Source: Actinokineospora spheciospongiae (GTDB lineage: Bacteria; Actinomycetota; Actinomycetes; Mycobacteriales; Pseudonocardiaceae). Taken from it: a DNA stretch of 54,561 nt. The DNA lies in contig NZ_AYXG01000056.1 in NCBI RefSeq assembly GCF_000564855.1, positions 1 through 54,561 of the forward strand, given 5' to 3'. Shown here one piece after another: positions 7 through 54,561 of the stretch (position 1 is the stretch's first letter; every line of letters starts with the position of its first letter). A program made the position numbers and the translations under genes. The notes beneath the pieces were generated by a model. The model did not search any database and had not been told where the DNA came from. It saw only the letters and a program-made list of their open reading frames with translations.

Positions 7-54
7 ACATGATCGCCATAGGGGCCCCGGCCAAACACATCCACCCAGCCGGGC
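7..54 (+). repeat. Left copy of a 48-bp inverted repeat found at both window ends
   Basis: These 48 bases are the exact reverse complement of 54514..54561. Key sub-motifs are ATGATCGCCAT, the palindrome GGGGCCCC and ACATCCACCCAGCC. Looser similarity continues inward to a CCGGTC-containing stretch at about 70-75. The stretch up to the suhB stop at 134 holds no gene. The surrounding genes are core chromosome, so this is more likely a dispersed intergenic repeat at which an assembly broke than a replicon terminus. Confidence 0.85.
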
Positions 55-133
55 GCACCCACACAAAGACCGGGCCCTGAAACCCACGGCTGACCCGCGA
101 GCACGCAGCACGCCCCGCGTAGACACCCAGCCG

Positions 134-934
134 CTACTCGTACCCGCCGATCCCGCACTCCACCAGCGCCGCCCGCAACTCCCCCGCCACGGCAGGCGCG
201 CACGCGAACACCGCGTCCGCCCCCAGCTCAGGCGCCTCCCCCGGCAGCGACACCACCGCACCCGCCTCCTCCGCGACCAGCGCCCCCGCCGCCCAGTCCC
301 ACCGGGAGAGCCCGCGCTCGCAGTACCCGTCCACCCACCCCGCCGCGACCGCGCACAGGTCCAGCGACGCCGCCCCCGCCCGCCGGATGTCGCGCACCCG
401 GCCCAGCAGCCGGGCGACCACCGCGGCGTGGTCGCGGCGGCGCTGCGCCGAGTAGGAGAACCCGGTGGCGATCAGCGACACGTCGAGCCCCGCGGGTTCG
501 GAGACCCGCAGCCTGCGCCCGTCGAGCCAGGCGCCGTGCCCGCGGGCGGCGGTCCAGCGCCTGCCGCTGACCGGCTCCACGACCGCCCCGGCGACCGACA
601 CCCCGTCGACCTGTGCGGCCAGCGACACCGCGTACCAGGGGTAGCCGTAGAGGTAGTTCACCGTTCCGTCGATGGGGTCGACGACCCAGGTCAGGCCCGG
701 TCCGGCCGCCCCGCCGCCCTCCTCGCCCAGCACCGCGTCGCCCGGTCGCAGCTCGGCCAGCCGGGCCCGGACCAGGTCCTCGGCGGCCCGGTCGCCCGCG
801 GTGACCACGTCGGTGCGGGTGCTCTTGGTGTCGACGTCGCGGATCGCCGCGGCCCGCGTCGACTCGGCCAGCGCCGCGGCGGCCACGGCCACGGTCTCGG
901 CGATCTCGGCGAGGTCGCGTTCGGAGGTGCCCAC
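134..934 (-). CDS. suhB: Inositol monophosphatase family protein (SuhB-like)
   Basis: A metal-dependent phosphatase of the inositol monophosphatase family, expected to release phosphate from inositol-1-phosphate or a related sugar phosphate. The Mg-binding motifs are all present: GEEGG at residues 70-74, DPIDGT at 86-91 and WDWAAG at 212-217. The GTG at 934 gives 266 residues, the usual family length. The reading frame stays open to 1366, but that would run through the divergent ppgK gene, so the long version is rejected; another GTG lies at 976. It is divergent from ppgK across about 80 bp, as in M. tuberculosis (suhB/ppgK/sigA). The family is certain; the in vivo substrate is not. Confidence 0.9.
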   Translation of the reverse strand: MGTSERDLAEIAETVAVAAAALAESTRAAAIRDVDTKSTRTDVVTAGDRAAEDLVRARLAELRPGDAVLGEEGGGAAGPGLTWVVDPIDGTVNYLYGYPWYAVSLAAQVDGVSVAGAVVEPVSGRRWTAARGHGAWLDGRRLRVSEPAGLDVSLIATGFSYSAQRRRDHAAVVARLLGRVRDIRRAGAASLDLCAVAAGWVDGYCERGLSRWDWAAGALVAEEAGAVVSLPGEAPELGADAVFACAPAVAGELRAALVECGIGGYE

Positions 935-1016
935 CCGTCCATCCGACCACAGCCGGGACCGGACGGCTAATGTCACCGCTCGACGGCCACTGAATCGAAT
1001 TTGAAAGGAACCGGGG

Positions 1017-1778
<762 letters not shown>

Positions 1779-1818
1779 AACCGCCCCCTGAGCGGGTGCA
1801 CGAGCACATTTCGGGCTT

Positions 1819-1839
1819 GGCGTGTCCTCGGGACACGCC
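1819..1839. promoter_or_regulatory. 9-bp inverted repeat between ppgK and the sigA promoter
   Basis: GGCGTGTCC and GGACACGCC are perfect complements around a 3-nt spacer. The element sits 10 bp upstream of a TACAAT hexamer, where a -35 region would be. It could be the ppgK terminator hairpin (no T-run follows) or an operator over the sigA promoter. The sequence alone cannot tell these apart. Confidence 0.45.
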
Positions 1840-1848
1840 GCCCGTCGC

Positions 1849-1854
1849 TACAAT
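1849..1854 (+). promoter_or_regulatory. Candidate sigA -10 element (TACAAT)
   Basis: TACAAT matches the actinobacterial TAnnnT -10 consensus and lies about 110 bp before the sigA start. No convincing TTGACA-like -35 is present at 16-19 bp spacing; that place is taken by the 1819-1839 inverted repeat. The transcript would have a roughly 100-nt leader. Confidence 0.4.
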
Positions 1855-1965
1855 GGAACAGGCCCGCGGCTGAGAAGCCCACCGGGCACTCCCCCGAACT
1901 CCGGCAGTGACCAGGCGTTTCCACACTCGGACGCAGCCGTGATGGACAGTTGTGAAAGGGCGTAC

Positions 1966-3288
<1,323 letters not shown>

Positions 3289-3302
3289 ACCCGGGTCGAC
3301 CG

Positions 3303-3335
3303 GAAGAAGCCGCTCCCGATGGGGGCGGCTTCTTC
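3303..3335 (+). terminator. Hairpin terminator after sigA
   Basis: GAAGAAGCCGC and GCGGCTTCTTC form an 11-bp perfect stem with an 11-nt loop, starting 15 nt after the sigA stop codon. No T-run follows, as is common in high-GC actinobacteria. Confidence 0.75.
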
Positions 3336-3521
3336 GCGTGAAATGCCCCGTTCGGCCGATCAAGTCCAGGATGTGGTCGTCGGGGGCGTTCGCCCGTGGT
3401 GAACAGGATCTCAGATCATCGGGGATTCAGGTTCCGTTTGCCCGACGTAGGCCCAGCTCCAGGGCCTTTTTGGACCACGGTCGCGAGTAAAACCCGGGTT
3501 ACCGGCTTTAACTCTGGAAAC

Positions 3522-3548
3522 GGGAACACTGCCGGGGGCCCAAACGTC
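3522..3548 (+). promoter_or_regulatory. Candidate ECF-sigma promoter (GGGAAC-N17-CGTC)
   Basis: GGGAAC at 3522-3527 and CGTC at 3545-3548, 17 bp apart, match the GGAAC/CGTT-type consensus of SigE- and SigH-class ECF sigma factors. The spacing is the same as at the sigB promoter (24314-24340). The predicted transcript would have a leader of roughly 95 nt carrying the 3609-3630 hairpin. Confidence 0.5.
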
Positions 3549-3608
3549 TGTAAGAGTAGGAAGTGCGACCACGGCGGAGTTTCCGCCTCCGTGACCGCAG
3601 CCGATGAG

Positions 3609-3630
3609 GGCACCGGGTCCACCCGGTGCC
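3609..3630 (+). promoter_or_regulatory. Perfect 10-bp inverted repeat in the leader of the zinc-ribbon gene
   Basis: GGCACCGGGT and ACCCGGTGCC are separated by 2 nt and end 20 nt before the ATG, just upstream of the GGAGGGAG ribosome-binding site. As RNA it would be a strong hairpin; as DNA it is a two-fold symmetric operator-like site. Confidence 0.6.
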
Positions 3631-3650
3631 GGGACGGAGGGAGAACTCCC

Positions 3651-3836
3651 ATGACGACGACTACGACGCTCACCCGCCCCGAGCTGACCGCTGCCGACCG
3701 CTGCGACCGGTGCGGCGCGGCCGCTCAGGTTCGCGCCGTACTTTCCTCCGGAGGAGAGCTCCTGTTCTGCGGCCACCACGCTCGGGCGCACGAGGACCGT
3801 TTGCGCGAGCTGGCGGCTGAGCTCCAGAAGGGCTGA
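3651..3836 (+). CDS. Small zinc-ribbon protein (DUF7455 type)
   Basis: A 61-residue cytoplasmic protein. Cys18-x2-Cys21 and Cys40 with His42/His43 look like a metal site; the body reads as one zinc ribbon followed by a charged C-terminal helix. The ATG at 3651 is set by GGAGGGAG 8 nt upstream; the frame is open further 5' but without a ribosome site. I recognise it as the small conserved actinobacterial family usually found near sigA. Function is unknown. An ECF-type promoter and a leader hairpin suggest stress-dependent or post-transcriptional control, which is inference. Confidence 0.8.
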   Translation: MTTTTTLTRPELTAADRCDRCGAAAQVRAVLSSGGELLFCGHHARAHEDRLRELAAELQKG

Positions 3837-3852
3837 CAGTCGCGCCTGAACA

Positions 3853-3896
3853 CGACGAGGGCCGGTATCCCGCTGCGGGGTGCCGGCCCTCCTCGT
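3853..3896. terminator. Hairpin terminator between convergent genes
   Basis: GAGGGCCGG pairs with CCGGCCCTC, and the stem extends outward past one bulge. It lies 16 nt after the zinc-ribbon stop and also downstream of the convergent ROK regulator (stop at 3981), so it could serve both. Confidence 0.65.
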
Positions 3897-3980
3897 TGTC
3901 CGACCGACGAACCAGTGTCCCGGGGTCTCGAAGCGCCGCCGGGAGGCGTGTGGGCGAGCTGGGGCCCCGGACGCGGGGGT

Positions 3981-5153
3981 TCAGACCATGTCGAGGACCG
4001 GTTCGAAGGCGAGTTCGGCGGCGCCGATCAGCTTGACGTCCGAGCCCATTGCCGAGGTGAGGACGCGGGTTCCGCCCACTGCCCGGCTCACCAGGGAGCG
4101 GCGGCTGACCTCGGCGCCCACGGCGGAGATCAGCGTCGGGGGCAGGGCGGTGAACAGGTCGCCCAGGACGACCAGTTCCGGGCCGAACACGTTGACGATG
4201 TTGACCAGGCCGATGGTCAGGAACTCGCGGAAGTCGCCCAGGACGGCGGTGATCCGCTCGGGGGTGGTCAGGGAGCGCAGTTCGGCGACGACCGCGCCGC
4301 GCGGGGTGCCCTCCGGGAGCTTGAGGGCGCGGCACAGGGCCAGTTCGCCCACCTCGGTCTCCCAGCAGCCCCGGCTGCCGCAGTAGCAGGGGCGACCGCG
4401 CGGGTTGACCACCATGTGGCCGAGTTCGCCGACGTACCCGGCGGTGCCGCGCAGGGCCGAGCCGTCGGAGATGACGCCGCCGCCGACGCCCACGTCGGCG
4501 GAGACGTAGACGGCGTCGAGGGAGCCGCGGGCGGCGCCGCGGAGGTGTTCGGCGAGGGCGGCGATCTCCGCGTCGTTGGCGATGCGGATGGGGACCGAGA
4601 GGGCGCCGCCGAGGCGGTCGCCGAGGGGGACGTTGGTCCACTGGAGGTTCGGGGCCTCGTGGACGAAGCCGTCGGAGCGGCGGACGACGCCCGGGACCGA
4701 CACGCCGGCCCCGACCATCCGCACGCCCAGTTCGGCGGCGAGGACCTGGGTGGACTCGATGACGTGGGTGATGACCTCGTCCGGTTCGCTGGCGCGGCCG
4801 TGCAGGTTCCAACTGTTGCGGCCGAGCATCTCCCCGCCCAGGCCGACCAGGGCGATCGCCACCTGCTCCACCCGGATGTCGACCGCCACGACCACCGCCG
4901 CGTGCGCCTGCGGGAGGACCAGCAGCGACGGCCTGCCCGCGCCGGAGCGGGCCCGGGGCAGTCGTTCCTCGACCACCCCGGACTCCGCCAGCCCGTCGAC
5001 CAGTGCCTTGATGGTGCTGCGGTTGAGCCCCAGTTCCGTCGCCAGGGACGCCCGGGTGGTGGGGCCCGCCACGTGCAGCCTGCGCAGCAGCGCGGTCCGG
5101 TTGTGCCTGCGCACCTCGTCGGGACGGGCTCCCGCCGTGGGCGTGCTGGTCAC
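3981..5153 (-). CDS. ROK-family transcriptional regulator of the sugar ABC operon
   Basis: 390 residues. An N-terminal winged helix-turn-helix (about 13-70, RRHNRTALLRRLHVAG then TRASLATELGLNRSTIKALV) precedes a ROK sugar-binding domain. The ROK zinc motif CYCGSRGCWE lies near residue 252. The GTG at 5153 follows GGAAGGCAGG. It is the last gene of the ABC importer operon, 19 bp after the permease stop. ROK regulators of this arrangement (XylR-like) usually repress the adjacent sugar genes and release DNA on binding the sugar. The likely target is the 19-bp palindrome at 8663-8681. The sugar itself is not proven. Confidence 0.85.
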   Translation of the reverse strand: MTSTPTAGARPDEVRRHNRTALLRRLHVAGPTTRASLATELGLNRSTIKALVDGLAESGVVEERLPRARSGAGRPSLLVLPQAHAAVVVAVDIRVEQVAIALVGLGGEMLGRNSWNLHGRASEPDEVITHVIESTQVLAAELGVRMVGAGVSVPGVVRRSDGFVHEAPNLQWTNVPLGDRLGGALSVPIRIANDAEIAALAEHLRGAARGSLDAVYVSADVGVGGGVISDGSALRGTAGYVGELGHMVVNPRGRPCYCGSRGCWETEVGELALCRALKLPEGTPRGAVVAELRSLTTPERITAVLGDFREFLTIGLVNIVNVFGPELVVLGDLFTALPPTLISAVGAEVSRRSLVSRAVGGTRVLTSAMGSDVKLIGAAELAFEPVLDMV

Positions 5154-5172
5154 GTGCCTGCCTTCCGGTTGC

Positions 5173-6600
5173 CTACCTGGTGGAGACCGCCGCGCGCCTG
5201 CGCGAGAGGGCGTCGACGGTGGCCGCCAGCAACAGTACGAGGCCGGTGACGATGTTGACCACGGCGGCGGGCTGCTTGAGCAGGCCGAGGCCGTTCTCCA
5301 CGACCGCCAGCACCAGACCGCCGACCACCGCGTGGAACACCTTGCCCCGCCCGCCGAACAGCGACGTGCCGCCGATGACGGCCGCGCCGACCGCGAACAG
5401 CAGGGTGTTGAGGCCACCGGCCTGCGGGTCGACCGAGCCGACCTTCGACGAGTACACGATCGCACCCAGGGCCGCCAGGGAGGAGGTGACGACGAACACG
5501 CTGGCCCGGATCTTGCCCACGTTGATGCCCGCGCGCCGAGCCGCCTCGGCGTTGCCGCCGACGGCGTAGATGTGGCGGCCGTAGCGGGTGCGGTTGAGCA
5601 CGTAGGTGCCGATGACCAGCACCACGAGCACGATCGGCACCACGTACGGGACGCCCTCGATGACGACGGACTCGTTGGGCGAGCGGTTGAGCGTCAGCGC
5701 GAAGGTGGCCACCGCGGAGACGAGCGCGACCGCGCCGACCTTGGCCAGCACCAGCGGCGTCGGCATGGTGACCAGGCCGCGCTTGAGCCTGCTGAAGTGC
5801 TCGCCGAGCACGACCGCGGCGTAGCCGCCCGCCGCGACGACGAACAGGACCCAGCTGCCGAGCACGGGCAGGTTGCCGTTGGCGACGGAGAACAGCACCG
5901 GCTGGGTGCCGATGCCGAACACGCCGCCGTCGCCGATGAACTGGAGGATGACGCCCTGCCAGGTGATGAACAGCGCCAGGGTCACCACGAACGACGGCAT
6001 GCCGATCTTGGAGACCAGGAAGCCGGTGACCACGCCGATCGCGGTGCCGACGCAGATCGCGAGCAGCATCTCGATCCACGGGTTCGGCGCCGCGCCGATC
6101 ATGGCGATGACGATGGCGATGCCCGCCATGACCGCGCCCGCCCAGATGCGCATGAACAGTGCCAGGCCCGCGGCGACGACCAGGCCCGCGACGAACACGT
6201 AGAACACGGTGGAGCCCATGCCGCCGAGCAGGTTGCCCGAGCGCACGTAGTGCATGGCCATCACCGCCGCGGCCACACCGGAGGCGGTGCCCGCGGACAG
6301 GTCGATCTCGCCGAGCAGCAGGACGAACACCAGCCCCATGGCGATGATCATCTTGCCCGCGCCCTGGGCGAGCAGGTTCGCGGTGTTGTCCAGGGTGAGG
6401 AAGCTGTCGGACAGCACCCAGAACACCAGCACCATCACGGCCAGGCCGAGCACGGCGGGCAGCGAGCCCAGCTCGCCGCCGCGCAGCCGCGCGAAGTAGT
6501 CGCGCAGCGCCTCGCCGCTGGACTGGGTGGTGGTGTCGATGCCGAAGTCGGAGATGGCGCCGCCGGTGTCGGTCTTCTCGGTGGCTGGGGTTTCAGTCAT
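5173..6600 (-). CDS. xylH: Sugar ABC transporter permease (XylH/RbsC family)
   Basis: 475 residues, strongly hydrophobic after a hydrophilic N-terminal stretch of about 45 residues, with roughly ten or more predicted membrane segments. The EIDLSAGT motif and the conserved C-terminal loop YAVGGNAEAARRAGINV are hallmarks of the ribose/xylose-type branch of inner-membrane permeases, whose single gene makes a homodimer. The ATG at 6600 is 16 bp downstream of the ATPase gene. With the ATPase and lipoprotein genes upstream it forms a complete importer. The XylFGH name fits the actinobacterial layout with a single-domain ATPase and a ROK regulator; other pentoses or hexoses are possible. Confidence 0.87.
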   Translation of the reverse strand: MTETPATEKTDTGGAISDFGIDTTTQSSGEALRDYFARLRGGELGSLPAVLGLAVMVLVFWVLSDSFLTLDNTANLLAQGAGKMIIAMGLVFVLLLGEIDLSAGTASGVAAAVMAMHYVRSGNLLGGMGSTVFYVFVAGLVVAAGLALFMRIWAGAVMAGIAIVIAMIGAAPNPWIEMLLAICVGTAIGVVTGFLVSKIGMPSFVVTLALFITWQGVILQFIGDGGVFGIGTQPVLFSVANGNLPVLGSWVLFVVAAGGYAAVVLGEHFSRLKRGLVTMPTPLVLAKVGAVALVSAVATFALTLNRSPNESVVIEGVPYVVPIVLVVLVIGTYVLNRTRYGRHIYAVGGNAEAARRAGINVGKIRASVFVVTSSLAALGAIVYSSKVGSVDPQAGGLNTLLFAVGAAVIGGTSLFGGRGKVFHAVVGGLVLAVVENGLGLLKQPAAVVNIVTGLVLLLAATVDALSRRRAAVSTR

Positions 6601-6616
6601 TGGTGTGCCTCGGTGA

Positions 6617-7390
6617 TCAGACTGTCGCGGACTCGGGGCGGGCCAGCCCGAGGTCTCCGGATCGGCCCGCGGTGATCAGCTCGACGACCTGGCCGTGCGT
6701 GACGTCCCTGGTCGGCACCTGGGCGACCATGCGGCCCAGGTAGAGGGTGGCGATCCGGTCGGCCACCTCGAACACGTCGGCCATGTTGTGGCTGATCAGC
6801 ACCACACCCAGGCCCTGCTCGGCCAGCCTGCGCACCAGGTCGAGCACCTGCCGGGTCTGGGCGACGCCGAGCGCGGCGGTCGGCTCGTCGAGCAGCACGA
6901 CCTTGCTCTCCCACAGCACCGACTTGGCGATGGCCACGGTCTGCCGCTGCCCGCCCGACAGCGAGGAGACCGGGGTGCGCACCGACTTGACCGTGCGCAC
7001 CGACAGCGAGGCCAGGGTGTCGCGGGCGGCTTTCTCCATGCTGGCCTCGTCGAGCATCCAGGCGCTGCCGCGCTCGCGGCCGAGGAACATGTTCTGCACG
7101 ATGTCGAGGTTGTCGGCCAGCGCGAGGTCCTGGTAGACGACCTCGATGCCCAGGTCGGCGGCGTCGCGCGGGCCGTTGATCGTCACCGGCCTGCCGTTGA
7201 AGGACACCTGCCCGGAGTCGGTCGGGTGGATGCCCGCCACGCACTTGACCAGGGTCGACTTGCCCGCGCCGTTGTCGCCGACGAGCGCGGTGACCTCACC
7301 GGCGCGCACGGTGAAGTCCACGTCGTGCAGCACGTGGACGGGTCCGAAGCTCTTGTTGAGCCCGGTGATCTCCAGAATGGGTTCGCTCAT
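6617..7390 (-). CDS. xylG: Sugar ABC transporter ATP-binding protein (single-domain XylG type)
   Basis: 257 residues with Walker A GDNGAGKST (38-46), Q-loop near residue 87, signature LSGGQRQ (144-150), Walker B VVLLDEP (164-170) and the switch His in VVLISHNM. It is a single nucleotide-binding domain, unlike the tandem ~500-residue RbsA/XylG of enterobacteria, so it must dimerise. TAGGAG precedes the ATG. The 82-bp gap to the upstream binding-protein gene carries a large hairpin (7415-7462). It powers uptake through the permease at 5173-6600. Confidence 0.9.
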   Translation of the reverse strand: MSEPILEITGLNKSFGPVHVLHDVDFTVRAGEVTALVGDNGAGKSTLVKCVAGIHPTDSGQVSFNGRPVTINGPRDAADLGIEVVYQDLALADNLDIVQNMFLGRERGSAWMLDEASMEKAARDTLASLSVRTVKSVRTPVSSLSGGQRQTVAIAKSVLWESKVVLLDEPTAALGVAQTRQVLDLVRRLAEQGLGVVLISHNMADVFEVADRIATLYLGRMVAQVPTRDVTHGQVVELITAGRSGDLGLARPESATV

Positions 7391-7414
7391 GGCGCGATCT
7401 CCTACGGGGAAGGA

Positions 7415-7462
7415 CCGCCCCCGGCCCGGCGCGTGGGGGGAGACGCGCCGCGCCGGGGGCGG
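7415..7462 (-). promoter_or_regulatory. Long intercistronic stem-loop between binding-protein and ATPase genes
   Basis: Two 20-nt arms (7415-7434 and 7443-7462) pair with one mismatch around an 8-nt loop, 10 nt after the xylF stop. Such hairpins between solute-binding-protein and ATPase genes typically act as partial terminators or 3'-end stabilisers that raise binding-protein mRNA over the rest. The role here is inferred from position and structure. Confidence 0.75.
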
Positions 7463-7472
7463 AGGACTTCGG

Positions 7473-8597
7473 TCAGCTGATGCCGAGCTGCGAGCAGACC
7501 GGGGCGAGGTCGCCGCCGCAGATCTCCGACGCCTTCACGTAGCCCTGCGTCACGACCTCCTTGACGGTGTCCTTGGTGGTCAGCTTCGGCTCCAGCAGCA
7601 CCGACTTCACCTTGCGGTTGGCCTTGGTGTCGTCGCTGCTCTGCTTGGCCAGCGCGTCGGCGCCCGCGGTGTCGCCCTTGGCCAGCAGGGCGGCCAGGGA
7701 GGCGGTGTTCTCCGCCTCCTCCTTGATCGGCTTGAACACGGTCATGTACTGGTCGCCGCGCAGGATCGCCATCAGGCCGTCCGCGGTGGCGTCCTGGCCG
7801 GTCACCGGGACCTTGCCGTTGAGGCCGTTCTTGCGCAGCACGGTGATCACCGCACCGGCGAGGCCGTCGTTGGCGGCCACGACGCCGTCGACCTTGCCGC
7901 CGTTGCCGGTCAGGATCTGCTCGAAGGTGGTGCCGCCCTTCTGGTTGTCCCACCCGTCGATGGCCTGCTTCTGCACCAGCTTGAGCGTGCCCGCCTCGTA
8001 CAGCGGCTTGAGGACGTTCTGCTGGCCGTTGTAGAACAGGGTCGCGTTGTTGTCGGTCGGGGCGCCCTCGATCTCGATGACCTGCGCGCCCGGCTTGTCC
8101 TTGAGTGCGTCGGCCAGGCCCTGGCCCTGGAGTTCGCCGACCTTCACGTTGTCGAAGGACACGTAGTAGTCGGAGCTGCCGCCGAGGTTGAGGCGGTCGT
8201 AGTCGATGGTGGGGATGCCGCGGGCCTTGGCCTTGGCCGCCACCGCGGTGCCGACCTCGGAGTTGATCGAGGCGATGACCAGGACCTTGACGCCCTGGCT
8301 GATCATGCCGTCCGCGAGGGTGGTGAACTTCTGCACGTCGCCCTGGGCGTTCTGGATGTCGGGTTCGAGGCCCTTGGCCTTCATCGCCGCTTCCAGCATG
8401 GGCTTGTCGAAGCCCTCCCAGCGGGCGGACGTCGCGGTTTCCGGCAGGATCACGCCGACCGGGATGCCCGGGCCGCTGCTCGCGGTGTCGCTGGACCCGC
8501 CGGAAGCGGGCGGGGCGGCCTGGTTGGCCCCGCACGCCGTCAGGGTCAGGGCCGTACCCAGCCCCGCGGCCAGGAATGCCAGAGTCTTGCTGCGCAT
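7473..8597 (-). CDS. xylF: Sugar-binding lipoprotein of the ABC importer
   Basis: 374 residues. The N-terminal signal (MRSKTLAFLAAG...) ends in the lipobox LTAC, so the protein should be lipid-anchored outside the membrane. The remainder has the two-lobe periplasmic-binding fold of the ribose/xylose group (VGVILPETATSARWEGFDKP, a central QKAIDGWDNQ, and ITVLRKNGLNGKVPVTGQDA near the hinge). The ATG at 8597 is preceded by AAAGGGA; the upstream open extension overlaps the operator and is rejected. It is the first gene of the operon xylF-xylG-xylH-ROK. The exact sugar is unproven. Confidence 0.87.
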   Translation of the reverse strand: MRSKTLAFLAAGLGTALTLTACGANQAAPPASGGSSDTASSGPGIPVGVILPETATSARWEGFDKPMLEAAMKAKGLEPDIQNAQGDVQKFTTLADGMISQGVKVLVIASINSEVGTAVAAKAKARGIPTIDYDRLNLGGSSDYYVSFDNVKVGELQGQGLADALKDKPGAQVIEIEGAPTDNNATLFYNGQQNVLKPLYEAGTLKLVQKQAIDGWDNQKGGTTFEQILTGNGGKVDGVVAANDGLAGAVITVLRKNGLNGKVPVTGQDATADGLMAILRGDQYMTVFKPIKEEAENTASLAALLAKGDTAGADALAKQSSDDTKANRKVKSVLLEPKLTTKDTVKEVVTQGYVKASEICGGDLAPVCSQLGIS

Positions 8598-8662
8598 CAC
8601 GATGTCCCTTTCGATGCCGCTGGACGGTGCCGCCTGGACCCGGGGCGAGCTGACCGTTCCAA

Positions 8663-8681
8663 ATGTTGTGGGCCACAACAT
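8663..8681. promoter_or_regulatory. 19-bp perfect palindrome, likely ROK regulator operator
   Basis: ATGTTGTGG and CCACAACAT are exact complements around one base. The TTGT/ACAA half-sites resemble known ROK repressor operators. The site lies 66 bp upstream of the xylF start and overlaps a candidate -10 element, the expected place for repression by the operon's own ROK regulator (3981-5153). Confidence 0.75.
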
Positions 8682-8705
8682 ATGCCGTTCGACCGACGTC
8701 GGAAA
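8677..8705 (-). promoter_or_regulatory. Candidate promoter of the sugar importer operon
   Basis: On the minus strand TTTCCG (8705-8700) and TATGTT (8682-8677) are 17 bp apart, a weak -35 and a fair TAnnnT -10. The -10 overlaps one arm of the 19-bp palindrome, so bound repressor would occlude polymerase. Confidence 0.45.
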
Positions 8706-8922
8706 CCGGACTGACTCGATTCAGGTCCATTCGGTGGGACACGGTTTGGCAACGGAGTGGACATCTGCGCGCAATGCGTCCGGTCGGGTGCACGGATCGC
8801 GTCCGATCGGGCGCCGCGCGTAGGCGCGCACACCGGGGCATCCGCTCATCGGACCGCTCCCGCAGGTCACCGAGTCGATCCGGGGCGCGGGCGGTGTCCG
8901 CCGCGGGGGTCGAGCGGGGCCG

Positions 8923-43766: not shown

Positions 43767-43813
43767 GCTAACCTCCGTCGGCCGGGCCGACTGTCCTCTG
43801 TAGAGTGAAGAAC

Positions 43814-44668: not shown

Positions 44669-44691
44669 CTCCACCTCCGCAAACGTCGATT

Positions 44692-44714
44692 CGGAGCGAT
44701 ACGACCACGCTCCG
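44692..44714 (-). promoter_or_regulatory. Inverted repeat in the leader of the M23 peptidase gene
   Basis: CGGAGCG and CGCTCCG (7 bp) flank a 9-nt spacer, 23-45 nt before the peptidase start. This may be an RNA hairpin or an operator; nothing decides between them. Confidence 0.4.
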
Positions 44715-44842
44715 TGCGCAGACCCAAAGCCTTTCCCACCGATTAAGGGGTGAGGGTTTGGCGAACAAGGGGGTGTCCGGGTGACCCGCGGCCGCAGGCG
44801 ATCCGGGGACGGGTGCCGGGTCCGGTGGGTAGCCTCCCCGGC

Positions 44843-46399: not shown

Positions 46400-46488
46400 C
46401 GGAGGACCCGCAACGGTCGTCCACCCGCTGCGATCGGGCCTGTGGACAACTTCCCCGGCCCGACCCGGCTCGGTGGCAAACTGGCCCC

Positions 46489-48537
46489 ATGACCGACGCC
46501 GACACCACCAACGACCCCCACCTCTGGCTCGAGGACGTCACCGGCGAGCAGGCCCTGGCCTGGGTGCGGGAGCGCAACGCCGAAGCCGTCGCCGCGCTGA
46601 CCGGCGGCGAGCGGTTCGAGACGACCAGGCGCCGGCTGCGCGAGGTCCTCGACGCCGACGACCGGATCGCCTACCCCCGCCGCCGCGGGGAGCACCTCTA
46701 CAACTTCTGGCAGGACGCGGCGCACCCGCGCGGGCTGTGGCGGCGGACCACCCTGGAGGAGTACCGCGGCGGCGACCCGGAGTGGACGGTGCTGCTGGAC
46801 GTGGACGCGCTCGCCGAGGCCGAGGGCGAGAACTGGGTGTGGGCGGGCGCAGCGGTGCTGCGGCCCGACTTCCGGCTGGCACTGGTGGAGCTGTCGCGCG
46901 GCGGGGCGGACGCGGCGGTGGTCCGCGAGTTCGACGTCGAGGCGCGCGAGTTCGTCGCCGACGGGTTCACCCTGCCCGAGGCCAAGTCCCGGGTGGGCTG
47001 GATCGACGCGGACACCGTGTACGTCGGCACCGACTTCGGCGACGGCTCGATGACCGCCAGCGGGTACCCCCGGGTCATCAAGTCCTGGCGGCGCGGCACC
47101 CCGCTGGAGGAGGCGGAGACCGTCTTCGAGGGCAAGCCGGACGACGTCAGCGCCTTCGCCTACCACGACAGCACCCCCGGCTTCGAACGCGACTTCGTCG
47201 GCAGGCACCCGGACTTCTTCAGCAGCGAGGAGTTCCTGCGCGCCCCGGACGGCACGCTGACCAGGATCGACGTGCCGGACGACGCGAGCACCGACGTGCA
47301 CCGACAGTGGCTGCTCGTGTCGCTGCGCTCGGACTGGGAGGTCAACGGCACGACCTACCCGACCGGCGCCCTGCTCGCGGCCGACTTCGACGCCTACCTC
47401 GCGGGCTCCCGCGAGCTGACCGTGCTGTTCGAGCCGGACGCGCGCACCTCGCTCAGCGGGTACGCCTGGACCCGCAACCACCTGATCCTCAACGAGTTGT
47501 CCGACGTCAAGACCAGGCTGGAGGTGCTCACCCCCGGCGCGGACGGCTGGGCGCGCGAGTCCCTGCCCGGGGCGCCGGAGCTGGGTTCGGCCGACGTGCT
47601 GGACACCGACCCGGACAACTCCGACGAGTACCTGCTCAACGTCAGCGGCTACCTCCAGCCGTCCACGCTGATGCGCGGCGAGATCGGCGGGGAGGTCGAG
47701 GTGCTGCGGCGCGCCCCGGCGTTCTTCGACACCGACGGCCTCACCGTCGAGCAGCACTTCGCCACCTCGGACGACGGGACGAAGGTCCCGTACTTCGTGG
47801 TGCGCGGTGAGCAGCCCGGCGGACCCACGCTGCTCTACGGCTACGGCGGTTTCGAGGTCTCGCTGACCCCCGGCTACTCCGGCGGCCTGGGCCGGGCCTG
47901 GCTGGAGCAGGGCGGCACCTACGTGGTGGCCAACATCCGGGGCGGCGGTGAGTACGGGCCCGCCTGGCACCGGGCCGCGCTGCGGGAGAACCGGCCGCGC
48001 GCCTACGAGGACATGGCGGCGGTGGCGAAGGACCTGGTCGCCCGCGGCATCACCACCCCGGACCGGCTGGGCATGCAGGGCGGCAGCAACGGTGGCCTGC
48101 TCGCGGGTGTGATGCTGACCCGCTACCCGGAGCTGTTCGGCGCGATCGTCAGCCAGGTGCCGCTGCTCGACCTGCGCCGCTACCACCTGCTGCTGGCGGG
48201 CGCGTCCTGGATGGCGGAGTGGGGCGACCCGGACGACCCCGCCGACTGGGCCTACCTGCAGGGCTACTCGCCCTACCACAACGTCCACAGTGGAATGAAG
48301 TACCCGCCGGTGTTCTTCGTGACCTCGACCCGCGACGACCGGGTGCACCCCGGGCACGCTCGCAAGATGGCCGCGCGGATGCGGGAACTGGGCTTCGAGC
48401 CGAAGTACTACGAGAACATCGAGGGCGGCCACGGCGCGGCGGCCGACAACGCGCAGCGCGCCTTCATGTCCGCGATCGTCTACGAGTTCCTGCTGCGGAC
48501 GTTGGCGCCGGAAGGGGGTGTCGGTGCCGCTGGGTAG
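46489..48537 (+). CDS. Prolyl oligopeptidase family serine peptidase (S9)
   Basis: 682 residues. An N-terminal beta-propeller (about 20-400) gates a C-terminal alpha/beta-hydrolase domain. The nucleophile is in GGSNGG (Ser533); the Asp is probably in TSTRDDRVHPGH and the His in EGGHGAAAD near residue 650. The propeller start DPHLWLED and VVANIRGGGEYGPAWH are standard for S9A enzymes. Cleaves short proline-containing peptides in the cytoplasm. No Shine-Dalgarno; CAAACT 6 nt upstream suggests a leaderless start. Confidence 0.9.
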   Translation: MTDADTTNDPHLWLEDVTGEQALAWVRERNAEAVAALTGGERFETTRRRLREVLDADDRIAYPRRRGEHLYNFWQDAAHPRGLWRRTTLEEYRGGDPEWTVLLDVDALAEAEGENWVWAGAAVLRPDFRLALVELSRGGADAAVVREFDVEAREFVADGFTLPEAKSRVGWIDADTVYVGTDFGDGSMTASGYPRVIKSWRRGTPLEEAETVFEGKPDDVSAFAYHDSTPGFERDFVGRHPDFFSSEEFLRAPDGTLTRIDVPDDASTDVHRQWLLVSLRSDWEVNGTTYPTGALLAADFDAYLAGSRELTVLFEPDARTSLSGYAWTRNHLILNELSDVKTRLEVLTPGADGWARESLPGAPELGSADVLDTDPDNSDEYLLNVSGYLQPSTLMRGEIGGEVEVLRRAPAFFDTDGLTVEQHFATSDDGTKVPYFVVRGEQPGGPTLLYGYGGFEVSLTPGYSGGLGRAWLEQGGTYVVANIRGGGEYGPAWHRAALRENRPRAYEDMAAVAKDLVARGITTPDRLGMQGGSNGGLLAGVMLTRYPELFGAIVSQVPLLDLRRYHLLLAGASWMAEWGDPDDPADWAYLQGYSPYHNVHSGMKYPPVFFVTSTRDDRVHPGHARKMAARMRELGFEPKYYENIEGGHGAAADNAQRAFMSAIVYEFLLRTLAPEGGVGAAG

Positions 48538-48547
48538 TGTCTGAGCG

Positions 48548-51500
48548 GTGATGGCGCTGCACTGCCTCGCCACAGACGCGGGCGACGTGGCGCTGTGGGC
48601 CGAGGACTCCGAACTGCCCGCACGACGGCCCGGCCGGGCCTCCCGGACCGCGGACGCCCACCCGTTCGCCGTGCCCGCGGAGGAGCTGGCCAAGCGGCTC
48701 GGCTTCGCCTTGGCCGCCGGGGTGGTCCGCGCCGCCCCGGCGACCGAAGCCGCGGAAGCCACCCGGGGTGCCGGGGGGCTTCCGGCGGCTGGTGGGTCCG
48801 GCCGGGCCGCCGGGGTGGTCTCGGCGGCTGACGGTCTCGGTGGCACCGGCGGTTCGGGGCCCGAGTCGCGCGAGGCTGTCGGCGGCGAGCCGGGTACTGG
48901 GGCACGCGGGATCGCCGGGGGCGAGCCGGGGAACGAGTCACCCGGGGTTGCGAGGGACGAGCCGGAGGCTGGGTCCTCCGGGACTGTCGGAAACGGTCCC
49001 GGGAACGGCCCACCTGGCGCTGACGGGGGCACGTCGGAGGCCCGGACATCCGGAGCCGTCAGCGGCGAGCCGGAAGCCGGGACACCCCGGACCGTCGAAG
49101 ACGGCCACGGGAACGAGCCACCTGGCGCTGACGGGGACACGTCGGGAGACGAGCCACCCGGAGTCGTCGGCGGCAAGCCGGGTGCCGGGACATTAGGAGC
49201 TGTCGGAGACGGTCCGGGGAACGGATCGCCCGGAGCTGGCAGAGGCGAGTCGGGGGGTGGGGCATCGGCGGCTGTTGAGGGTGAGCCGGAGGGTGAGTCG
49301 TCCGGGGATGTCAGCCGTGAGTCGGGAGATGGATCATCCGGAGTTGCTGCGGGTGGGCGGCGCGGGGCTGTTGGGGACGGGTCGGCGTCGGGGGAGGTCG
49401 GAGCTTTCGCGACTTCCCTTGTGCCCGGGGCATCCGCAGTGGCCGGGGATGCCCCGGGGGCTGGGGCACCTCGAACCGGTGGGCGGGCACCGGGAGCCGA
49501 GGGAGTCCGGGCGGTCGAGGCGGCTGCGGCGGTCGCGCTGACCGGGATCAAGCCGGGGGCCGGTGTCGGTGGGCCGGGGGCCGGTGTCCGTGGGCTGGCG
49601 TCCGTGGGCCGTGCGGCGGGGGCCGGTGTCGGTGGGCCGGTTGCGGTGGCGCGGGTGGTGCGGGTGTTGTTGCCGTCCCATCCGTCGGCGCCGGTGGCTT
49701 CGCCGGAGTTGGTGCGGCATCCGTTGGGTGCGGGGGCCGCGCCCCGGGGGGCGGTGCGGTTGGCGCCGTGGTTGGTGCCCGCGTTGGTGGTGCCCGCGGC
49801 GGTGGCGGCGGGGGCGTTGGACGGGGAGGACGTGCGGCCGGGTGCGGCGGTGCGGTTCCTCGGGCGGGTCGCCGCGCTGGCGGAGGACCTGGTGTCCCGG
49901 GGGCGGGTGCTGCCCGCCATCGCCGCTGAGGGGGCGGGGCCCGCGGCGCGGTGGCGGCCCGCGTTGTCGGGGGCGGACTCGGCTCGGTACGCGCGGCTGG
50001 GTGAGGCGTTGCCGCCCGCGTTGCGGGCCGAGCAGGTCGATCCGGGGCTGCTGGAGGGGCGGATCGGGGAGGAGGTGTTGCGCGGCCTGCTCGACGGGAT
50101 GGTCGACGCGATGGTGCGGGCCCGGTTGGTGGGGGTGCGGTTGGCGCCGAACGGGCGCTTCGCCGCCGCCGACGAGGCGGCCGGGGCGTTGCTGCGCGGG
50201 CTCGTCGGGGACCCGTCGCTGGTCGCGGCGCCGGAGCGGGTGCGGCGGCTGACCGGGGTGTTGGGCACGTGGGCGGCGGGCGCCGAGCACAACGGGCCGG
50301 TGCGGGCGTGTTTCCGGTTGCGCCCGCCCGAGGACACCGAGGAACACTGGCGGCTGGAGTTCCTGCTCCAGGCCGCCGACGACCCGAGCGTGCTGGTGCC
50401 CGCCGCGCGGATCTGGCACGGCGATCGGGGCGGGGTGCTGCGCCGGTGGGTGGCCCGCCCGCAGGAGGTGCTGCTCACCGACCTGGGCCGCGCGGCCCGG
50501 GTGCTGCCCGCGCTCGACGCCGCGTTGCGGGAGCGGCACCCGGTGGGGCTGGACCTCGACACCGCGGGCGCCCACGACTTCCTGACCCGGGCGGCGGCGC
50601 TGGACCAGGCGGGGTTCGGTGTGCTGGTGCCGACGTGGTGGAAGCCGTCCTCCGGGGTCGGCCTCAAGCTGACCACGACCAGCCGGGGCACCGCGGGCGC
50701 GGTGAGCCGCACCAGCGTGCTGGGCCGCGACGAGCTGGTGGACTACCGGTGGGACGTGGCGCTGGGCGAGCTGACGTTGACCGAGGAGGAGTTGCGCGAG
50801 CTGGCCGAGGCGAAGGTGCCGCTGGTCAAGGTGCGCGGCCAGTGGGCGCAGGTCGACCGCCGCAGGCTCGCCGCGGGGCTGGCGTTCCTGGAGAGGGCGG
50901 GCTCCGGGCGGATGTCGGTGGGCGAGGTGCTGGAGGTGGCCGGGCTGCCCGCCGACGACGAGACCTTCGGGGTGCCGGTGGTCGGGATCGGCGGCAGCGG
51001 CTGGGTGTCGGACCTGCTGGCCGGGCGGGTGGAGAACGCGCTGGAGCCGCTCGACCCGCCGCCCGGGTTCGGGGCGGTGCTGCGGCCGTACCAGCGGCGC
51101 GGGCTGGCGTGGCTGGCGTTCCTGGACGGCCTCGGGCTGGGTGCCTGCCTGGCCGACGACATGGGCCTGGGCAAGACCGTGCAGCTATTGGCCCTGGAAG
51201 CGCTCAAGCGCCACGGCGAGCGGCGGCCGCCGACCCTGTTGATCTGCCCCATGTCGTTGGTGGGGACCTGGTTGCGCGAGGCCCAGCGGTTCACCCCGGA
51301 CCTGCGCGTGCACGTCCACCACGGCGCCGACCGGGCCACCGGCGAGGACCTGGCCGGGGCACTGGGAGGCGCCGACCTGGTGATCACCACCTACGCCCTG
51401 GCGACCAGGGACGCCGCCGAGTTGGCCGAGCTGACCTGGGACCGGATCGTGCTCGACGAGGCGCAGAACATCAAGAACAGCGCCGCCCGGCAGTCGCAGG

Positions 51501-52504
51501 CGGTGCGGGGGCTGCCCGCGCGGCACCGGGTCGCGCTGACCGGCACGCCGGTGGAGAACCGGCTCGCGGAGCTGTGGTCGGTGATGGACTTCGCCAACCC
51601 GGGTCTGCTCGGGCCGCTGAGCAGGTTCCGCGCCCGGTACGCGGTGCCGGTGGAGCGGCACGGCGACGAGGACGCCGCCGCCCGGCTGCGGCGGATCACC
51701 CGGCCGTTCGTGCTGCGCCGGGTGAAGACCGATCCGGCCGTGATCGACGACCTGCCGGACAAGCTGGAGATGAAGCAGCTCTGCACGCTCACCGCGGAGC
51801 AGGCCTCGCTCTACCGGGCCGTGGTCGACGACATGCTGGAGAAGGTCGCCGAGAGCGACGGGATTCAGCGCAAGGGTCTGGTGCTGGCCACCATGACCAA
51901 GCTCAAGCAGGTTTGCAACCACCCGGCGCAGTTCCTCGGCGACGGTTCCCGGGTCGCCGGGCGCTCTGGGAAGCTGGCGCGGCTGGAGGAGATCCTGGAG
52001 CAGGTGCTCGCCGACGGGGACCGGGCGCTGTGCTTCACCCAGTTCGCCGCGTTCGGCGGGATGCTGGTGCCGCACCTGGCCGCCCGGTTCGACACCGAGA
52101 TCGCGTTCCTGCACGGCGGCACCCCGAAGAAGCAGCGCGACCGCATGGTGGAGCGCTTCCAATCCGGCGACGGCCCGTCGGTGGTGCTGCTGTCGCTCAA
52201 GGCGGGCGGCACCGGGCTGACGCTCACGGCGGCGAACCACGTGGTGCACCTGGACCGGTGGTGGAACCCGGCGGTCGAGGACCAGGCCACCGACCGCGCG
52301 TACCGCATCGGGCAGGGGCGGGCGGTGCAGGTGCGCAAGTTCGTCTGCGTGGGCACGCTGGAGGAGCGCGTCGACACCATGATCGAGCAGAAGAAGGCCC
52401 TGGCGCAGCTCGTCGTGGGCGCGGGCGAGGGCTGGCTGGGTGACCTGTCGACCGACGAGCTGCGCGAGCTGGTCACCCTGTCGGGGGAGGCCGTCGGTGA
52501 GTGA
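48548..52504 (+). CDS. SNF2/RapA-type helicase with a minisatellite-encoded insert
   Basis: 1318 residues. The start is GTG at 48548 (ATG next at 48551), with TAGTGT 7 nt upstream, so probably leaderless. Residues 113-268 are about thirteen 12-residue Gly/Glu/Pro repeats. The conserved N-terminal domain resumes near residue 375 (VARVVRVLLPSHPSAPVASP). The SNF2 ATPase has DDMGLGKT about residue 870, DEAQN about 971 and the second RecA lobe ending ATDRAYRIGQGRAVQV near 1250. It is a chromatin/RNA-polymerase-remodeller-like ATPase of unknown bacterial role. The stop overlaps the SWIM gene by 8 bp. Confidence 0.9.
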   Translation: MMALHCLATDAGDVALWAEDSELPARRPGRASRTADAHPFAVPAEELAKRLGFALAAGVVRAAPATEAAEATRGAGGLPAAGGSGRAAGVVSAADGLGGTGGSGPESREAVGGEPGTGARGIAGGEPGNESPGVARDEPEAGSSGTVGNGPGNGPPGADGGTSEARTSGAVSGEPEAGTPRTVEDGHGNEPPGADGDTSGDEPPGVVGGKPGAGTLGAVGDGPGNGSPGAGRGESGGGASAAVEGEPEGESSGDVSRESGDGSSGVAAGGRRGAVGDGSASGEVGAFATSLVPGASAVAGDAPGAGAPRTGGRAPGAEGVRAVEAAAAVALTGIKPGAGVGGPGAGVRGLASVGRAAGAGVGGPVAVARVVRVLLPSHPSAPVASPELVRHPLGAGAAPRGAVRLAPWLVPALVVPAAVAAGALDGEDVRPGAAVRFLGRVAALAEDLVSRGRVLPAIAAEGAGPAARWRPALSGADSARYARLGEALPPALRAEQVDPGLLEGRIGEEVLRGLLDGMVDAMVRARLVGVRLAPNGRFAAADEAAGALLRGLVGDPSLVAAPERVRRLTGVLGTWAAGAEHNGPVRACFRLRPPEDTEEHWRLEFLLQAADDPSVLVPAARIWHGDRGGVLRRWVARPQEVLLTDLGRAARVLPALDAALRERHPVGLDLDTAGAHDFLTRAAALDQAGFGVLVPTWWKPSSGVGLKLTTTSRGTAGAVSRTSVLGRDELVDYRWDVALGELTLTEEELRELAEAKVPLVKVRGQWAQVDRRRLAAGLAFLERAGSGRMSVGEVLEVAGLPADDETFGVPVVGIGGSGWVSDLLAGRVENALEPLDPPPGFGAVLRPYQRRGLAWLAFLDGLGLGACLADDMGLGKTVQLLALEALKRHGERRPPTLLICPMSLVGTWLREAQRFTPDLRVHVHHGADRATGEDLAGALGGADLVITTYALATRDAAELAELTWDRIVLDEAQNIKNSAARQSQAVRGLPARHRVALTGTPVENRLAELWSVMDFANPGLLGPLSRFRARYAVPVERHGDEDAAARLRRITRPFVLRRVKTDPAVIDDLPDKLEMKQLCTLTAEQASLYRAVVDDMLEKVAESDGIQRKGLVLATMTKLKQVCNHPAQFLGDGSRVAGRSGKLARLEEILEQVLADGDRALCFTQFAAFGGMLVPHLAARFDTEIAFLHGGTPKKQRDRMVERFQSGDGPSVVLLSLKAGGTGLTLTAANHVVHLDRWWNPAVEDQATDRAYRIGQGRAVQVRKFVCVGTLEERVDTMIEQKKALAQLVVGAGEGWLGDLSTDELRELVTLSGEAVGE
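48884..49351 (+). repeat. Nested 36-bp / 108-bp minisatellite inside the SNF2 gene
   Basis: Thirteen degenerate 36-bp units encode 12-residue repeats close to GEPGxGxPGxVG. A higher-order 108-bp period is visible: related triplets begin at 48992, 49100 and 49208, each opening with GACGG or AACGG followed by GGGAACG. The frame is preserved throughout. Confidence 0.85.
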
Positions 52505-53324
52505 CGACGAGTGGTGGCGCGACGCCCCGGCCAAGCCCGTCATCCGGGTCGAGGACGGGGTCCGCGCCCGCAGCCTGCGCGGGGAGATCGCGCGGTCGTG
52601 GTGGTCGCGGCGGTTCCTGTCGGTGCTGGAGTCGCTGGGGCTCAGCGGGCGGTTGGACCGGGGCAAGCGCTACGCCCGGCAGGGGCAGGTGCTGAGCCTG
52701 TCGCTGTCCAAGAGCATCGTGGTGGGGCAGGTGCAGGGCACCCGGCCGGAGCCCTACCGGGTGCGGATCGTGGCGCGCGCGTTCACCGACGAGCAGTGGG
52801 AGCAGGTGGAGCAAGCGCTTGCGGGGCAGGCGGTGTTCCTGGCGAAGCTCCTCGCGGGCGACATGCCCGACGACATCGAGGCCGTCTTCGACGGGGTGGG
52901 CCTGCGCCTGTTCCCGGACGACCGGCAGGACCTGTCGATGGACTGCACGTGCCCGGACTGGCAGGTGCCGTGCAAGCACCTCGCCGCCGCCTGCTACCTG
53001 CTCGCGGAGTCGTTCGACACCGACCCGTTCGAGATCCTGGCCTGGCGCGGACGGGGCAGGCAGGAACTGCTGGACAACCTGCGCGGGCTGCGCGAGCGCT
53101 CCGGACCGGCACCGGCGGAGGAACGCGAACCGCCGTTGTCGGAACTGCTGGAGGAGTTCTGGGGACCGCCCACCACTCCCCCGGCCCCGGTGGCGCAGCC
53201 CGCCGTGGCCGCGCCCGACGCATTGCTGGACCAGTTGGACGCGCTGCCGGTGATCGTGCGCGGCAAACCGTTGGTGGAACTGTTGCGCCCGGCGTACCGG
53301 GCCATGGTGGAGGAGTCGGAGTGA
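52497..53324 (+). CDS. SWIM zinc-finger protein
   Basis: 275 residues. The SWIM motif CTCPDWQVPCKH (Cys-x-Cys-x6-Cys-x-His) lies about 149-160, inside a helical protein with aromatic-rich N terminus (DDEWWRDAPAKP) and charged C terminus. SWIM domains bind DNA or protein and are often linked to SNF2 ATPases. The GTG at 52497 overlaps the SNF2 stop by 8 bp, and its stop overlaps the next gene by 4 bp, so the three products are probably made in fixed ratio and may form a complex. Confidence 0.9.
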   Translation: MSDDEWWRDAPAKPVIRVEDGVRARSLRGEIARSWWSRRFLSVLESLGLSGRLDRGKRYARQGQVLSLSLSKSIVVGQVQGTRPEPYRVRIVARAFTDEQWEQVEQALAGQAVFLAKLLAGDMPDDIEAVFDGVGLRLFPDDRQDLSMDCTCPDWQVPCKHLAAACYLLAESFDTDPFEILAWRGRGRQELLDNLRGLRERSGPAPAEEREPPLSELLEEFWGPPTTPPAPVAQPAVAAPDALLDQLDALPVIVRGKPLVELLRPAYRAMVEESE

Positions 53325-54358
53325 GTGCACGGCTGGATCGCCGGGTCGCGGCGATCGCCGAGGAACTGGTGCGGCACAAGAAGGTCGTGACACCACTGGA
53401 CGTGGTGGCGGGCCTGGGCTGGCTCAGCGGCCGGGTGGTGCAGTCCTGGGAGCTGGGGAAGACACCGAGCCTGGACGCGGTCGCGGCGGTACCCGCCGAA
53501 CGCCTGGCCGAGGCGGCTTCCTGCCTGGCGAAGTGGGCGTCGGACCGGGGTCTTCTCCAGTCCGAGGTGGAATACCTGTCCGGCACGCGCGATCGGCGCG
53601 CTTTGCGTTTCACCGCATCGGGTGACGCGGCGGTGGAACGGCTGTTCACGACACAATGGACTGATCCGACCCTGTCGGCGGAGAGGCGGGCCCGGGTCAC
53701 AGCGCAGAAGGCGCCGGAACTCATGGTCCTGGTGGCGGAGCGGCCGTGGTACTGCTCGCAGTGCCGGGAAACCGGGGAGTTCCACTTCGTCGAGGACGAA
53801 CTGCCGGTGTGCCTGGACTGCGCGGACTTCGGGCACCTGGTGTTCCTCCCATCGGGGGACGCGGCGCTGACCCGGCGGGCGCGGAAGGGCAGCGGGCTGG
53901 CCGCGGTGGTGGCCCGGTGGAACCGGTCGCGGAAGCGGTACGAGCGACGGGGGCTGCTGGTGGAGCGGGCCGCGTTGGAAGCGGCCGAGGCTTCGTGCCT
54001 GGTCGACGAGGAGGCGCGCGAGCGGCGGCGGGTGCGTGACCGGGAACGGCGGGCCGTGCAGGACGTGGAGTTCCAGGCCGCGTTCGCCGAGCGGATCGGG
54101 GAGTTGTTCCCGGCGTTGGCGGTCGAGCGGGCGCGGGCGATCGCCGAGCACGCGGGAACGCGGAGCAGCGGGCGGGTGGGGCGGTCGGCGGCGGGGCGGG
54201 CGCTGGACGAACACGCCGTGACGCTGGCCGTGGTGGCGGCGATCCGGCACGAGGAGACGGAGTACGACTCGATGCTGATGGCAGGGGTGGCCCGGGCGGA
54301 GGCGCGGGAGCGGATTCGGGAGGAGATCGACCGGGTGTTGGCGTTGTGGCGGGGCTAG
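53321..54358 (+). CDS. DUF2293 domain protein with four-cysteine zinc site
   Basis: 345 residues. A central block WYCSQCRETGEF...CLDCADFGH (two CxxC pairs, about 143-170) looks like a zinc ribbon. The C-terminal half, rich in Arg/Glu and predicted helical, includes FGHLVFLPSGDAALTRRARK and FAERIGELFPALAVERARAI of the DUF2293 family. The GTG at 53321 overlaps the SWIM stop by 4 bp and follows GGAGGAG. It is the third gene of the SNF2-SWIM operon. Function unknown; nucleic-acid binding is likely. Confidence 0.83.
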   Translation: MSARLDRRVAAIAEELVRHKKVVTPLDVVAGLGWLSGRVVQSWELGKTPSLDAVAAVPAERLAEAASCLAKWASDRGLLQSEVEYLSGTRDRRALRFTASGDAAVERLFTTQWTDPTLSAERRARVTAQKAPELMVLVAERPWYCSQCRETGEFHFVEDELPVCLDCADFGHLVFLPSGDAALTRRARKGSGLAAVVARWNRSRKRYERRGLLVERAALEAAEASCLVDEEARERRRVRDRERRAVQDVEFQAAFAERIGELFPALAVERARAIAEHAGTRSSGRVGRSAAGRALDEHAVTLAVVAAIRHEETEYDSMLMAGVARAEARERIREEIDRVLALWRG

Positions 54359-54513
54359 GCTCGGTCGCCTGCCTTCCGGATCGGCCACGGGCGGGGTGTG
54401 TGGCGGTTTCGCGACCAGGGCGGGGCTTGCGGGCCGGTCGTTTTGCTGGGGTGTCTGAGTGGACGATGTCCTCAGCAGCGCTCCGGTTCAAGCGCCGGTC
54501 GTTTCGGTGGTGT
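54359..54513. other. Intergenic tail with a repeated GCCGGTCGTTT motif
   Basis: No gene. GCCGGTCGTTT occurs at 54433-54443 and 54494-54504, 61 bp apart, with looser similarity continuing on the 3' side. The second copy runs directly into the 48-bp terminal repeat. The region therefore looks like part of a dispersed repeat family. Confidence 0.6.
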
Positions 54514-54561
54514 GCCCGGCTGGGTGGATGTGTTTGGCCGGGGCCCCTATGGCGATCATGT
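54514..54561 (-). repeat. Right copy of the 48-bp inverted repeat
   Basis: Exact reverse complement of 7..54. It begins GCCCGGCTGGGTGG and ends at the last base of the window with GGCGATCATGT. See the left copy. Confidence 0.85.

Follow-up and report, generated by a model that had tools for sequence, protein, structure and literature searches.

Parts of a dispersed, probably mobile hairpin element at both ends of an Actinokineospora contig

Repetitive extragenic palindromic (REP) sequences and REP doublets forming hairpins (REPINs) are described as short inverted doublets that fold into hairpins, lie between genes in many copies and are non-autonomous (PMC3116915). REPs prefer the gaps between convergent and co-directional genes and are regarded as mobile (PMC3733652). 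REP13E12/HNH/DUF222 sequences are counted among the repetitive elements of mycobacteria (PMC10589994). The DNA described here (the window) is 54,561 nucleotides long and makes up the entire contig C56 of the 262-contig, 7.53-Mb draft genome of Actinokineospora spheciospongiae (labelled G000). Its two ends are best explained as two incomplete copies of a dispersed, non-autonomous hairpin element that has spread through Actinokineospora and is probably mobile, a reading to which a probability of about 0.66 is given.

An earlier note on this contig had described a 48-bp perfect inverted repeat at its ends, and positions 7-54 are indeed the exact reverse complement of positions 54514-54561 (chance of such a match at one given pair of positions with the base composition of the window: ~1e-25). 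The note had taken the repeat for a dispersed intergenic one at which the assembly broke, and had called for a genome-wide count of copies. The arm 18-mer ATGATCGCCATAGGGGCC was found at 57 places in G000 with at most three mismatches (27 exact, 8 with one, 12 with two and 10 with three), of which one two-mismatch match (on C211) and most of the ten three-mismatch matches look unrelated by eye; its reversed control was found at one. This excludes the view that the genome holds only the two copies seen in the window. The repeat itself broke the assembly, as 22 of the 27 exact copies of the 18-mer are no farther than about 40 bases from a contig end; 16 of the 22 exact copies of the other arm's 19-mer are also found at contig ends. 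The note's reading is thus supported, but the repeat extends beyond the 48-mer, which makes up one third of a palindrome that is complete inside other contigs (C43, C75, C182 and others). Copy 1 (1-54, minus strand) matches 48 of the 146 positions of these complete copies. It consists of arm 1 (7-54) and six bases of the centre (1-6), and the contig stops within the element. Copy 2 (54514-54561, plus strand) is the same arm of the complete copies, and here the contig stops where the centre begins. The outer end of the 48-mer coincides exactly with the outer end of the complete element.

Complete copies inside contigs are imperfect palindromes of 146 bp, whose centre of about 55 bases forms a hairpin of its own. 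The order of parts is an outer stem, a conserved GGGGCCCCTAY bulge, a second stem and a terminal hairpin, and the length across the family is about 130-150 bp. All six copies that were folded gave very stable structures (-94.7 to -113.7 kcal/mol, z -8.8 to -12.4). An alignment was made of 28 copies, 26 of them distinct, that come from three species. In it, 96.6% of the structure cells are paired and 94 cells are changed on both sides, compared with 28 after shuffling and no more than 10 in slid controls. Changes on both sides affect 14 pairs (11.0 in shuffles, 14 being reached by 6 of 500), and further pair types are not above shuffles (26 versus 27.4). Nine of the ten pairs of the second stem never vary among these three species. 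The invariant columns, GGG and CCCCT with an optional base between them, are the end of the outer stem and the one-sided bulge. Across six genera (30 sequences), the stems differ widely, yet 18 of 22 outer-stem pairs have undergone double changes without loss of pairing, and GGGG and CCC hardly vary; the second stem is missing from the consensus structure of this alignment and visible in single folds. The stems thus evolve by compensatory mutation while the bulge stays. Among the elements of genome G014 (loci L478-L516), the outer stem TTGGGTGGTTCGCCTTGATT is nearly identical in most of 14 copies, and the inner stem and top vary.

Searches by sequence found the element in only three of 16 Actinokineospora genomes, namely G000, A. 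bangkokensis 44EHW (G002) and A. pegani TRM 65233 (G007), or two of the 15 congeners of G000. G002 has 120 places by this search, and 98 of the 100 places listed are complete elements (exceptions: C6:118945 and C28:132410). A first structure model, run with strict filters on 60 genomes and no more than 52 candidates of each, additionally found the element in G003. A second structure model, which scored no more than 150 candidates per genome, found the family in 15 of the 16 genomes with 15 to 150 scored matches each, the exception being G012. Some places score on both strands, so that the 136 matches of G014 correspond to 99 places. Twelve of the 16 genomes had contributed no sequence to this model. 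The narrow distribution first suggested was therefore dropped, the structure models having exposed the limit of sequence search. Ordinary sequence search largely misses the family because the stems drift while the shape and the bulge stay. Outside the genus, members from five genera of the same family, Pseudonocardiaceae, were recognised by eye after a model or scanner match (G069, G034, G022, G093 and G106). Two further kinds of sequence were also noticed. Several Sphingomonas species are among the matches listed, with loci (for example L171, L178 and L196) that carry CGATCATGYG and CRCATGATCGYC within matching stretches of about 80-86 bases, which may belong to a conserved gene. Quadrisphaera granulorum has a 95-bp near-perfect palindrome with GATCATGCGCC arms (L187:5553-5647).

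The elements lie predominantly at the 3' ends of genes, as judged from gene contexts called with a simple in-house gene caller. In G002, 60 of 97 elements are between convergent genes, 36 between co-directional (tandem) genes and one between divergent genes, with five more at locus edges left uncounted. The 144 element-free gaps of the same loci are distributed differently, with 8 between convergent, 75 between tandem and 61 between divergent genes (p values of Fisher's test: 3e-22 for the convergent and 1e-15 for the divergent class). As these loci had been chosen for having an element, the count was repeated on 800 kb sampled at even spacing across the complete genome of G014, without regard to elements. 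Among gaps of 60 bp or more, an element was present in 6 of the 50 convergent and 6 of the 201 tandem ones and in none of the 96 divergent ones (p 0.003 and 0.04); of the 15 scanner matches in this sample, one is a false positive inside a gene and two lie at the edges of a stretch. Placement is 20 convergent, 12 tandem and 3 divergent in G003 (n=35, one more at an edge), 8, 6 and 1 in G007 (n=15, one more at an edge), 6 convergent and 2 tandem in G000 (n=8), and 2 convergent and 8 tandem in G069 (n=10). The replication strand, for which a check had also been proposed, shows no bias (53 versus 46) in one complete congener with the origin assumed at coordinate 0, GC skew being too weak to place it.

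Inverted pairs of elements are frequent, and four pairs of G002 (L291, L311, L315 and L328) share a common unit that consists of the hairpin, about 330 bp and a hairpin of another type. Within this unit the four sequences have a mean likeness of 0.86 (16 of 24 windows of 25 columns at 0.85 or more, lowest 0.54), versus a mean of 0.43 and a maximum of 0.64 outside it, and each border lies no more than about 25 bp from the outer end of a hairpin. Because the four sites are unlinked and the borders sharp, the family looks mobile. Eight element sequences are each present twice, letter-identical, at different sites. The earlier note had suggested two functions for the repeat, a nucleoid-protein site or a small mobile repeat; the inverted pairs, the two-hairpin units and the hairpin-ended, gene-carrying repeats at unlinked sites described below favour the latter, and nothing observed speaks for the former, at which no direct test was aimed. 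At one G002 locus (L318:1540-2320), two reading frames near a contig end are accompanied by three hairpins; these frames resemble pieces of an insertion sequence transposase.

DUF222-HNH proteins are a large multicopy family of actinobacteria, of unknown function. Hairpins bound or adjoin such genes in three of the other genera. G022 has a DUF222-HNH gene between two inverted hairpins. G034 has two copies of a 1.44-kb repeat, 93% alike over 1.45 kb, that extends from the start of a hairpin to the stop codon of the gene. In G069, where 25 distinct DUF222 loci were examined (a set of 20 and five others; L438 duplicates L445) and the DUF222 genes outnumber the 27 scored, a 12-copy subfamily of about 85-92% identity has the left hairpin in 11 copies, the right hairpin in 6 and both in 5. 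The right hairpin of L401 is visible in the sequence and was missed by the motif. Four of the five copies with both hairpins measure 1,548-1,559 bp (about 1.55 kb), L463 has the left hairpin at both ends, and four loci have the right hairpin and no DUF222 match in the stretch examined. It is possible, if rather doubtful, that DUF222-HNH nucleases are the mobilisers of a new class of hairpin-ended transposable elements, recognising the folded hairpin with its GGGGNCCCCTA bulge and moving both gene-carrying units and the hairpin-only copies of Actinokineospora. Alternatively, the hairpins may have settled at the ends of DUF222 genes and then been carried along.

If the Actinokineospora element is mobile, its spread might be pictured in the following way. 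The element would move as a folded strand or hairpin, and an enzyme would read its shape together with the GGGGNCCCCTA bulge. Copies would be retained 3' of genes because they are tolerated there, and in convergent gaps a hairpin of such stability may also stop read-through from either side. In the other genera, the candidate mobiliser would be the DUF222-HNH nuclease carried between or beside the hairpins. In the genome of the window, the mobiliser may have been lost, or may be of a kind not yet recognised.

A number of observations weigh against this picture. None of the genes near the Actinokineospora hairpins stood out as encoding a mobilising enzyme, and the 25 largest clusters of the 828 proteins encoded at the loci, viewed by eye without a family search, appear to be common families of paralogues. 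DUF222 gave no match in 14 of the 16 Actinokineospora genomes; as that of the window is one of these, the mobiliser role can only be that of a candidate. The three DUF222 genes of the remaining genomes, G003 and G006, have no hairpin nearby. Across Pseudonocardiaceae, 27 DUF222 loci were scored, and a long hairpin was found at three of them and a hairpin of this type at only one of these three. Long hairpins as such are not rare, as five were found in 4 of 21 unrelated control loci (the window had none). A general partnership between DUF222 and the hairpin was thus rejected. Even within G069, a second DUF222-HNH subfamily of 12 loci (L450, L451, L454-L462 and L464; about 85-90% identity over 2 kb or less) and L445 have no hairpin of at least 90 nt. 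A 150-nt hairpin without the GGGGNCCCC motif lies near a DUF222 gene of G103 (L439:2663-2812). Tolerance does not fully account for the placement either, since the unpaired elements of tandem gaps lean one way, with the bulge arm on the side away from the 3' end of the upstream gene in 24 of 32 (19 of 26 in G002 and 5 of 6 in G007), a lean not expected if tolerance were the only factor. Flanks viewed by eye showed no target-site duplication and no clean empty site was found, and two insertions present only in G000 face matching G002 gaps too diverged to show a junction. Lastly, part of the family is inherited in place, as shown by elements at sites shared between species. In the five pairs of sites compared, both flanks are common in L295/L354, L306/L360 and L106/L296 (element identity 0.71, 0.69 and 0.76), one flank is common in L149/L282 (0.50), and L294/L355 is partly rearranged (0.70). 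The closest copies within the same genome reach 0.84-1.00 (the diverged copy L149 left out). Part of the family is therefore old in place and has been overwritten, by new copies or by gene conversion, and gene conversion could explain the likeness within genomes.

The same observations could be accommodated by an immobile element of the host, a barrier to transcription from either direction at the 3' ends of genes, maintained by selection and homogenised by gene conversion. Its convergent placement and rarity at promoters, the extreme stability of the hairpin and the presence of elements at sites common to species are as expected of such a barrier, and the identity of 0.69-0.76 in four of the five pairs of sites, below the likeness within genomes, is what gene conversion predicts. 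The two-hairpin units and the hairpin-ended gene-carrying repeats, at unlinked sites and with sharp borders, argue against it, however. In addition, no TTTT is present within 12 bases past the arm in any of 25 arm-2 flanks of G000, and REPs, which are held to be mobile, are placed in the same way (PMC3733652). A host barrier is on balance unlikely, though it deserves more weight than any of the explanations that follow. A family of REPs or REPINs moved by a REP-associated tyrosine transposase (RAYT), or another Y1 transposase of the IS200/IS605 type, would likewise give an inverted doublet that folds into one hairpin and lies in many copies between genes and near their 3' ends, and two genomes that carry the element, G006 and G014, do have a Y1 gene (PF01797). 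No hairpin of this type lies in the 3.4 kb around either gene, however; PF01797 has no match in the other 14 genomes; and neither the length of the arms nor the foot of the hairpin is that of a REP, which together leave this origin very improbable.

A structured RNA gene or cis-regulatory RNA is suggested by the strong covariation of the stems. Correction of palindromes during replication also yields compensatory changes, so that covariation alone is no proof of an RNA. No Rfam family reached its gathering score over the element at 13 loci (two tRNA matches both lie outside it), and all matches of a permissive search scored far under the cut-offs; one of these placed a microRNA precursor model of plant type on the G093 hairpin (33 versus 90 bits). 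Both directions relative to transcription occur in the tandem gaps of G002 (12 versus 24); a strand-specific RNA element was rejected for this reason, and an RNA of any kind is only slightly less improbable than a RAYT-moved family. Finally, a contig with a perfect inverted repeat at its two ends could be a transposon, plasmid or linear replicon of 54.5 kb with terminal inverted repeats. Many other contigs end in the same repeat, however, and some contain it complete, and both ends of the window are the same bulge-bearing arm 1 of the longer palindrome. They thus belong to two different elements and not to the two termini of one 54.5-kb element, an explanation that can be practically discounted. 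Parts of two copies of a dispersed and probably mobile hairpin element therefore remain the preferred explanation of the window ends.

Several smaller features of the window were also noted from its sequence. Both copies are in gene-free sequence, as had been claimed, and lie 3' of genes. The 3' end of an inositol monophosphatase family gene (134-934, minus strand; PF00459, E-value: 4e-61) points toward copy 1, and that of a DUF2293 protein gene (53321-54358, plus strand; PF10056, E-value: 2e-24) toward copy 2. The 48-bp repeat contains the GGGGCCCC and ATGGCGATCAT reported in it. GGGGCCCC (21-28, minus strand, in copy 1; 54540-54547, plus strand, in copy 2) spans the end of the outer stem and the beginning of the conserved CCCCTAY bulge, and occurs once more in the window, at 3961. 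The related motifs noted just inside the right end are present as CCGGTCGTTT at 54434 and 54495, and the similar stretch inside the left copy as GACCGGGC at 68. These belong to degenerate tails: one with a single GCCCGGTCTTTGTG unit lies between copy 1 and the gene 3' end (55-133, minus strand), and two GCCGGTCGTTT units lie outside copy 2 (54433-54443 and 54494-54504, plus strand). Many G000 copies have, outside their arms, degenerate direct repeats of about 60-66 bp that include GCCGGTCGTTT motifs (seen by eye; for arm 1, read from 33 listed flanks and present in many). On C43 (L094:1740-2400), about 700 bp of low-complexity CCCGGCCCGGCTCGG-like sequence lies beside a complete element and is absent from the matching G002 gap.

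The hairpin family is present in 15 of the 16 genomes of the genus, with about 100 copies in several, and largely escapes ordinary sequence search; it also fragments draft genomes. Given their position at the 3' ends of genes, the hairpins may shape transcription and recombination. The hairpin-bounded DUF222-HNH repeats of other genera offer a concrete and testable starting point for finding what this large family of proteins does.

No prior description of the hairpin element was found in the literature searched, most subscription journals being outside its reach. The element resembles REPINs in being an inverted doublet that folds into one hairpin, in its intergenic, multicopy and 3' placement and in being non-autonomous. 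It differs in that its arms are about 45-60 bp rather than palindromic units of 20-40 bp, that the GGGGNCCCCTA bulge is conserved and no GTAG/CGTC tag is present at the hairpin foot (RTAG is found only inside the bulge complement), and that the Y1_Tnp domain is without a match in most Actinokineospora genomes, including G000 (a draft), G002, G003 and G007. It is unlike an intrinsic terminator on the arm-2 side, where the T-run is lacking. Like a miniature inverted-repeat transposable element, it is small, non-coding and gene-free, with terminal inverted repeats and many copies; unlike one, its outermost bases vary between genera while the internal bulge is conserved. Target-site duplications were not seen in the flanks viewed by eye. 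A related full-length transposon was not found in the Actinokineospora loci examined, the gene-carrying hairpin-ended repeats being those of G069, G034 and G022. In these three genomes hairpins of the same architecture bound or adjoin DUF222-HNH repeats, which recalls REP13E12, whereas the Actinokineospora copies are gene-free and G000 has no DUF222 match. Integron attC sites are imperfect palindromes that are recognised by shape and have unpaired bases and a variable top. By description only, the element shares with them the imperfect palindrome, the unpaired bases and the variable top.

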